Origin: Fimbriiglobus ruber
GTDB taxonomy: Bacteria > Planctomycetota > Planctomycetia > Gemmatales > Gemmataceae
Assembly: GCF_002197845.1 (NCBI RefSeq)
Contig: NZ_NIDE01000014.1
Location: 744,001 to 808,000, forward strand
Direction: 5' to 3'
Length of the DNA stretch: 64,000 bases
The notes under the pieces are model-generated. The model did not search any database. It worked only from the letters and a program-made list of their open reading frames with translations, and was not told the DNA's origin. The translations under genes and the position numbers were made by a program. Below, one piece after another: positions 30,998-55,717 of this stretch (position 1 is the stretch's first letter; each line of letters opens with the position of its first letter).

Positions 30998-31106
30998 TGC
31001 CGGGAAGGGAGACTTGGGCTCTGCCCCAAACCCCACTGGAAGGCCGTGGGCCCTCCAGACCTCCCCATTTGCTCCCGATCAGCGGGGCGTCCCGCTGATC
31101 GGGAGC
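30998..31106 (+). repeat. left copy of a multi-hairpin inverted repeat
   Basis: This ~109-bp copy shares a conserved block (TGCCGGG..., GGGCTCTGCCCCAAACCCC, GGCCGTGGGCCCTCCAGACC) with the reverse complement of 31833-31949. At its inner end a perfect 16-bp hairpin follows (31071-31086 with 31091-31106, loop GCGT). The two copies face each other around the AT-rich gene at 31269-31727. Confidence 0.8.
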
Positions 31107-31268
31107 AGTGGCCGTTGATGCTCAGGGCAGGCGGAGCCTGCTTCGCCCCGGGCGCCTAACAGGGAAGCCAGCTAAGAGGGCGGGCTATAATCGAAAATTA
31201 GTTAGGTCGATAGAATCATACGTATTCATGAATTCTTACGGGCCGATTACAGTGGGCAGTATCGAATA

Positions 31269-31727
31269 TTAGTATTCGTCATACGTACCGTTGAATATAT
31301 CTATATTGAGGTCGCGTTTTTGACATTCAATGATAAAGTTAATTGGCATGGACACCCTGAGAAACGGCCTATTTGGACAGATGCATATGCATATATCTAA
31401 CGCATAGCCGAGCGCCCTCCACGAAGCGACAAGTTTGATCGGGATTTTCACAAGCTTATTTAAGGCCGCTTTGAACCAGATGTCGTTTATGTGTATAAGA
31501 TCATTTGGCGTATAGAGCTGGCAATTCAGCGATGATTCATAAATTGCATCTGCGAGCAAAATATATGCACCACGATTGCCAATAATTTTCTGATAGTGTG
31601 GCGGAAAATGCTGTCGCGGAAGACCGAAATGTTTGTACAAATCGCAGCTTTCGAGAGCCGCGGCCTCTTCGATCGCGCAACTCTGAAGGACTATGCCACA
31701 CCAAAACGAGTCTTCCGTAAGCTTCAT
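31269..31727 (-). CDS. orphan AT-rich gene of unknown function
   Basis: 152 residues from ATG 31727, preceded by AGGGAAGG; the frame runs on upstream into the repeat but that part is not coding-like. The protein starts MKLTEDSFWCGIVLQSCAIE and holds YILLADAIYESSLNCQLYTP and CICICPNRPFLRVSMPINF. It uses far more A/T codons than any neighbour (the stretch is roughly 40-45% GC by eye against ~65% around it), a sign of transfer. It lies between the two inverted repeats. No family recognised. Confidence 0.6.
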   Translation of the reverse strand: MKLTEDSFWCGIVLQSCAIEEAAALESCDLYKHFGLPRQHFPPHYQKIIGNRGAYILLADAIYESSLNCQLYTPNDLIHINDIWFKAALNKLVKIPIKLVASWRALGYALDICICICPNRPFLRVSMPINFIIECQKRDLNIDIFNGTYDEY

Positions 31728-31832
31728 GGAATACCGCCTTCCCTGATCAAGATTTAAACCCTCTCCCGCCTTGTCATCCGCCCGGAGCGGGGTCAAGTGC
31801 TCGTGCCGTGGGCAACAAAGGTCACCGCGAGC

Positions 31833-31949
31833 GCTCCGTGGGTCGATCCGCTTTGGGATCGACCCACGGAGCGGGAGCAAGAGGGAGGTCTGGAGGGCCC
31901 ACGGCCCTCCAGCGGGGTTTGGGGCAGAGCCCCAAGACTCCACCCGGCA
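31833..31949 (-). repeat. right copy of a multi-hairpin inverted repeat
   Basis: Reverse-complement partner of 30998-31106. It contains a perfect 17-bp hairpin (31833-31849 with 31856-31872, loop GCTTTG), then a 9-bp hairpin (31890-31898 with 31904-31912, loop CCACG) and a G/C-rich palindrome around GGGGCAGAGCCCC. The conserved block is almost the same as in the left copy, but the terminal hairpin has a wholly different sequence while keeping its position and size. Confidence 0.8.
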
Positions 31950-55576: not shown

Positions 55577-55589
55577 GCCCGAAATATTC

Positions 55590-55690
55590 GCCGCAGATGA
55601 ACGCAGATAAACGCGGATCAGAAAAGATTTAGAAATGCAGATTCTGTTCTGATCTTTTCTGATCCGCGTTTATCTGCGTTCATCTGCGGC
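55590..55690. repeat. 39-bp perfect inverted repeat (long hairpin)
   Basis: Arms 55590-55628 and 55652-55690 pair without mismatch around a 23-nt spacer; the outer part contains GCCGCAGATGAACGCAGATA. It is followed by six A, not T, on the plus strand, so it is not a classic terminator for the thrC-like gene. The CAGATGAACGCAGATAAACG type sequence is known to me as a scattered palindromic repeat in varied bacterial genomes. Confidence 0.85.
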
Positions 55691-55717
55691 AAAAAATGAT
55701 TTTGATTGGGAACATTC

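Follow-up and report, generated by a model that had tools for sequence, protein, structure and literature searches.

The window, a stretch of 64,000 nucleotides on contig C14 of the 12.36-Mb genome of Fimbriiglobus ruber, contained a short orphan ORF (P0001) enclosed by two inverted arms facing each other (31013-31110 and 31825-31936; Table 1). The arms were 96% complementary over 50 nt (31016-31065 versus 31883-31932); for a longer block (30998-31093 and 31855-31949) the figure was 84.7% across 98 nt, with an E-value of 3e-20 in a comparison of the window with itself. Each arm also displayed hairpins of its own. The initial annotation had described a gene lying between two facing copies of one repeat, with neither a transposase nor a target duplication, and this description was confirmed here: no transposase was encountered inside the unit and no duplication of at least 7 bp flanked it, while other copies of the same family do have one. 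Elsewhere in the window (55587-55693), an intergenic, near-perfect palindrome of 107 nt (GCCGCAGATGAACGCAGATAAACGCGGATC...), 88% self-complementary, looked like a second palindromic repeat, unrelated to the arm family.

Table 1. Features of the repeat-bounded unit found in the window
Feature	Position	Strand	Remarks
Left arm, outer block	31013..31065	+	Hairpin 1 (31016-31027, one G lost) and hairpin 2 (31036-31058); partner 31883-31936
Left arm, hairpin 3	31070..31107		Shortened; perfect stem of 17 bp
Left spacer	31126..31198	+	80% identity over 76 columns with cargo-less unit L034 (G000:C4:944057-944468)
AT-rich core	31199..31764		Unique to the window unit; GC about 0.43
Orphan ORF P0001	31269..31727	-	152 aa; GC 0.436; putative cargo gene
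Shine-Dalgarno-like AGGGAAGG	31737..31744	-	9 nt upstream of the P0001 ATG; putative, judged by eye
Right spacer	31765..31818	-	Common to L034 and cargo unit L037 (reverse-complemented); on the 5' side of the cargo ORF in each of the two cargo units
Right arm, hairpin 3	31832..31873		Perfect stem of 18 bp, loop GCTTTG
Right arm, outer block	31883..31936	-	Hairpin 2 (31890-31912) and hairpin 1 (31921-31933)

The base usage of P0001 had been singled out as unlike that of the rest of the window, and rightly so: its GC content was 43.6%, against a mean of 64.9% ± 5.1 for 400-nt segments of the window, and no other 459-nt stretch of the window was as low. When the AT-rich segment was resampled with a first-order Markov model, only 0.3% of the resamplings reached the 163-codon stop-free run of this ORF. 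P0001 had no match in Pfam or PHROG and a single, chance-level one in NCBIfam. No convincing homologue was found in 391 other genomes of the phylum, in plasmids, in phages or in viral contigs. A weak match occurred in only two related genomes among these 391 (36% over about 50 residues); it agreed in frame and strand on direct comparison, and its E-value of 3e-4 is not significant with 392 genomes searched. Residues 80 to 130, approximately, weakly resembled the C-terminal part of an uncharacterised family of 290-295 aa proteins (L231, L232), whose members carry a GISTWSSCEGHWG motif. The predicted structure was unusable (mean pLDDT of 29.5). The same gene at the same locus in all relatives, which the initial annotation had named as evidence against a mobile unit, was not encountered, as P0001 was not found in relatives. 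P0001 is best read as passenger cargo and as a putative gene; the one indication of a possible foreign origin is its base composition.

A DNA search of the genome gave 59 arm matches, and a covariance model built from 40 arms extended these to 71 full arms plus two partial ones. The full arms formed 34 facing pairs and left only three solo copies. The initial annotation had called for a genome-wide search and held that copies always occurring singly would speak against a paired element; the search uncovered a multi-copy family that is almost always arranged in facing pairs. The basic unit consisted of two facing arms of about 115 nt, each with three hairpins, separated by a short spacer; over their outer 58 nt, the arms paired with each other as well. 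Measured from arm end to arm end, the core was 281-446 bp long in 32 units, none of which held a gene-sized insert; the two longer units were that of the window (924 bp) and L037 (C17:860194-861115; 922 bp). Of 33 units, 31 were intergenic according to a rough ORF call. Two of the 34 pairs, L044 (C17) and L045 (C3), were near-identical and sat in duplicated flanking sequence; their shared flanks exceeded 100 bp, so that either the region is duplicated or contig C3 holds an assembly duplicate close to its end. Beside one complete unit on C1 (L048, about 1850-1995), a tandem array of 45-bp units comprising the left flank and hairpin 1 was observed. In 94 other Gemmataceae genomes, two of them from the same genus, no match to the arm family reached E<=1e-6, with at most nine candidates scored per genome. 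The search of relatives that had been proposed initially thus recovered neither the repeat nor the gene.

The sequence of the hairpins varied while their pairing was preserved. Hairpins 2 and 3 covaried strongly, with 173 double-changed cells versus 50 in shuffles; 98.3% of cells were paired, and this proportion fell to 46-55% when partners were slid by one column. G-U pairs were entirely absent from the 1390 cells of the three helices. Since selection on RNA should leave some of them, we infer that pairing is maintained at the DNA level, either through an enzyme that binds the hairpins or through templated correction. The hairpin-2 loop was the same in both arms of 22 out of 31 units, compared with 6% between units, while the similarity of hairpin 3 was lower within units (70%) than among different units (76%). 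The outer blocks of both arms therefore act as a single palindrome, and each arm has a separate, independent one in its hairpin 3. A single DNA strand of a typical unit folded with its arms paired and its hairpins formed (z about -22).

Such strong hairpins, together with the intergenic position of nearly all units, are also what bidirectional terminators or processed 3' UTR hairpins would display, so that the arms could be structured RNA under RNA selection and not mobile DNA. It is very unlikely that they are: total lack of G-U pairs despite 173 compensated changes is unusual for RNA, convergent genes flanked only two of the 31 units with both neighbours called, and no Rfam model matched at gathering thresholds (at E<=1 there were only sub-threshold matches, to microRNA and raiA-hairpin models). 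Target duplications, described below, also argue against this explanation.

Most units could be assigned to one subfamily, designated II, with conserved flanks outside the arms, the left and right flanks being different. The right flank terminated in GAGGGCAAGCCCCTC and this end was fixed in 12 copies, some other copies being truncated there. For the 12 copies with an intact right end, a word of at least eight bases starting no more than 4 nt from that end was sought in the left flank. Such words, of 8-11 bp, were found in seven of the 12 copies and in none of 132 mismatched pairs (permutation p 5e-5). These words are target duplications and show that the family has transposed, in part with duplications of 8-11 bp. 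On the left side, the end was located 48 to 69 nt outside the arm, and the sequence following the target duplication differed by copy; the ends are therefore not terminal inverted repeats. The arms are inverted repeats, yet the true ends of subfamily II lie 48-77 nt further out and are unlike each other. The units of the window, L037 and L034 formed another subfamily devoid of these flanks, in which no convincing target duplication was found; one flank of L037 was masked by N.

A fixed, hairpin-ended right extremity, a variable left one and 8-11 bp duplications in the absence of terminal inverted repeats would also suit a bacterial SINE-like retroposon, spread by target-primed reverse transcription. 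Covariation without G-U pairs points instead to a DNA intermediate and some copies are truncated at the right end, which makes this scenario scarcely plausible.

The genome contained three transposase genes of the Y1 (IS200/RAYT) type, on contigs C5, C14 and C17, none of them near an arm. A linkage between arms and Y1 transposases was accordingly rejected (0 out of 3 genes adjoining an arm); the covariance model gave no arm match near the three loci, and the repeats flanking them differed by inspection. Target duplications do not fit the known IS200/IS605 mechanism, which is why a DDE-type or other activity supplied in trans appears to be the more likely motor. The conserved right flank was not found away from the units, except for two marginal matches. 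At 1410-2901 of L093 (G000:C17:1000500-1004500), one of the Y1 genes lay between hairpin-rich inverted repeats of 361 nt (90%), with an extra partial copy downstream, and a second one (L094, G000:C14:995000-998500) was flanked by clusters of palindromic repeats of 35-78 nt. By analogy, the first of these loci resembles the TIRtrons of PMC3733652.

Gene-sized cargo was restricted to two of the 34 units, those of the window and L037. Whether other pairs enclose foreign genes had been asked in the initial annotation, and L037 does: its cargo ORF (L037:2415-2903) encodes 162 aa, and its product displayed 71% identity over 158 aa with a homologue in a genome of another genus (G012). The corresponding DNA match was confined to the coding region (73% over 467 nt), and neither an arm of the family nor a comparable long inverted repeat was found around the G012 gene. 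Because this homologue sits without the repeat and the match covers only coding sequence, the L037 gene is best read as cargo that was captured in the present genome. Homology between the two cargo proteins was rejected, their local score being 28 for a shuffle mean of 25.5, with 123 of 500 shuffles as high.

Spacers were shared by the window unit, L037 and the insert-free L034. On the right side, a segment common to all three displayed 78-95% identity; on the left side, L034 matched the window unit at 80% and, further along, L037 at 79%. L034 thus possesses spacer segments from both sides of the slot without any insert and can be read as a slot that is empty or was emptied, a deletion being equally possible. 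With respect to the shared spacers, both cargo ORFs were oriented alike, and both started about 100 nt from the same arm. One slot holding two different genes is the main support for a cargo site, and there are only two such cases. An occupied slot is a rare state, most units being without gene-sized cargo.

The scarcity of inserts, lacking in 32 of the 34 units, and the want of a target duplication around both long units (with one L037 flank masked by N) could also be accounted for by a MITE-like element whose spacer was hit by unrelated insertions, in which case there would be no slot and the unit would never move with cargo. Chance insertions appear unlikely, since the same spacer segments were retained on both sides of the insert in both long units, the cargoes were similar in size and identically oriented with totals of 922 and 924 bp, and the homology of the L037 cargo comprised coding sequence only.

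A comparison with empty sites in relatives was attempted through the neighbouring genes. The FAD-type neighbour was present in 28 out of 41 genomes, and the FG-GAP neighbour stood beside it in none of the 11 loci checked (flanks of at most 1.5 kb); gene order at the locus was therefore not conserved in these relatives, which offered no orthologous site. The initial proposal of a non-autonomous mobile unit or a repeat-bounded cargo slot is largely supported, as the family has transposed, a second pair holds cargo and L034 looks empty; it is qualified by the many cargo-less units and by the missing duplication at the window copy.

Several known systems share part of these properties. Like MITEs (reviewed in PMC10969869), the units are short, intergenic, multi-copy and palindromic, lack a transposase and display target duplications in part of their copies. 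They differ by a GC-rich rather than AT-rich core, by outer ends that are not mutual inverted repeats in the copies with target duplications, and by the fact that no parent insertion sequence was found at the Y1 genes or through the right flank. With REPINs and REP-BIMEs associated with RAYTs (PMC3116915, PMC3733652), they have in common a facing hairpin pair as the unit, few solo repeats and strong pairing between arms, which was also obtained by DNA folding. The tetranucleotide CGTC was encountered just before hairpin 1 in 28 of 69 arms, and GTAG in none; the former is reminiscent of the CGTC REPs, for which no transposase is known (PMC3116915, PMC3733652). Unlike REPINs, the family has three hairpins in each arm of about 115 nt, a unit length of about 300 bp, target duplications and cargo genes, and no linked Y1 transposase. 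TIRYTs and TIRtrons (PMC3733652) are likewise built of long, partly self-complementary inverted repeats organised as dimers; here, however, the 361-nt repeats at the Y1 gene were not family arms by inspection, no Y1 gene was flanked by the arms, and GGGGWSAS was not seen in them. In mobile insertion cassettes such as MIC231, which is moved in trans (PMC3913671), two inverted repeats enclose a passenger gene instead of a transposase gene, as they do in the window and C17 units. In contrast to these cassettes, the ends of the present family are multi-hairpin, no related insertion sequence was identified and mobility of the cargo form is putative.

Taken together, the window copy probably belongs to a species-specific family of mobile units that are palindromic and lack a transposase, one subfamily having a slot for passenger genes. 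A factor supplied in trans would recognise the hairpin DNA and move the whole unit, as for MITEs, REPINs and mobile insertion cassettes. The spacer of one subfamily would serve as the slot, and a foreign short coding sequence was taken up at least once, in the C17 unit, as its repeat-free homologue shows; the window unit, with an insert of foreign composition and the same slot, length and orientation, probably represents a second uptake. Against this explanation stand the absence of a duplication at the window copy, the presence of gene-sized inserts in only two of 34 units and, for the three Y1 genes and the right flank, the finding of no transposase that shares the ends. In kind, the family is best seen as a variant of the MITE, REPIN or mobile-cassette type with a rarely used cargo slot, and not as a new kind of element.

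Part of the arm was not restricted to this genome. An exact 27-mer covering hairpin 1 and the start of hairpin 2 occurred in at least 120 DNA stretches outside it, and the matches listed originated from Clostridia, Synergistaceae, Acetobacteraceae, Desulfovibrio, Ruminococcus, Turicibacter, Elusimicrobia, Armatimonadetes and Magnetococcales, most of them coming from few bins, above all one Clostridiales MAG. By a strict test, the second stem was self-complementary in 61 of the 126 listed modules. Among listed modules situated within 1.5 kb of each other, 19 pairs were facing and three diverging. Outside this genome, neither hairpin 3 nor the remainder of the arm was seen. Facing pairs of 360-930 bp in other phyla included one in a Turicibacter MAG (L189, 5514-6444), whose modules surrounded a complete uracil-DNA-glycosylase-like ORF; its interpretation as cargo was rejected, this being probably a resident gene between two common repeats. 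No paper naming the module or containing its sequence string was found in the open-access literature. The exact recurrence of the module across several phyla suggests that it is not peculiar to one planctomycete.

The arms might even be part of a pan-bacterial class of DNA palindromes with two hairpins (TTGGGGCTCKGCCCCAAACCCCGCYGG followed by a self-complementary second stem), arranged in facing pairs, kept as exact palindromes by templating, producing duplications of about 10 bp without terminal inverted repeats and occasionally capturing a whole coding sequence; that they form such an undescribed gene-capture element is quite improbable at present. The family nevertheless offers a tractable case of short palindromic repeats as gene carriers, as a single slot is available with two different cargoes and in an empty version, and one of the cargoes has a homologue free of the repeat, all in or near one genome. 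It also provides a test of why bacterial palindromes remain perfectly self-complementary, because the stems vary only through double substitutions that keep Watson-Crick pairing, and a change in one arm of a unit goes along with a change in the other. The module shared across phyla and this covariation restricted to Watson-Crick pairs are the parts most worth following.
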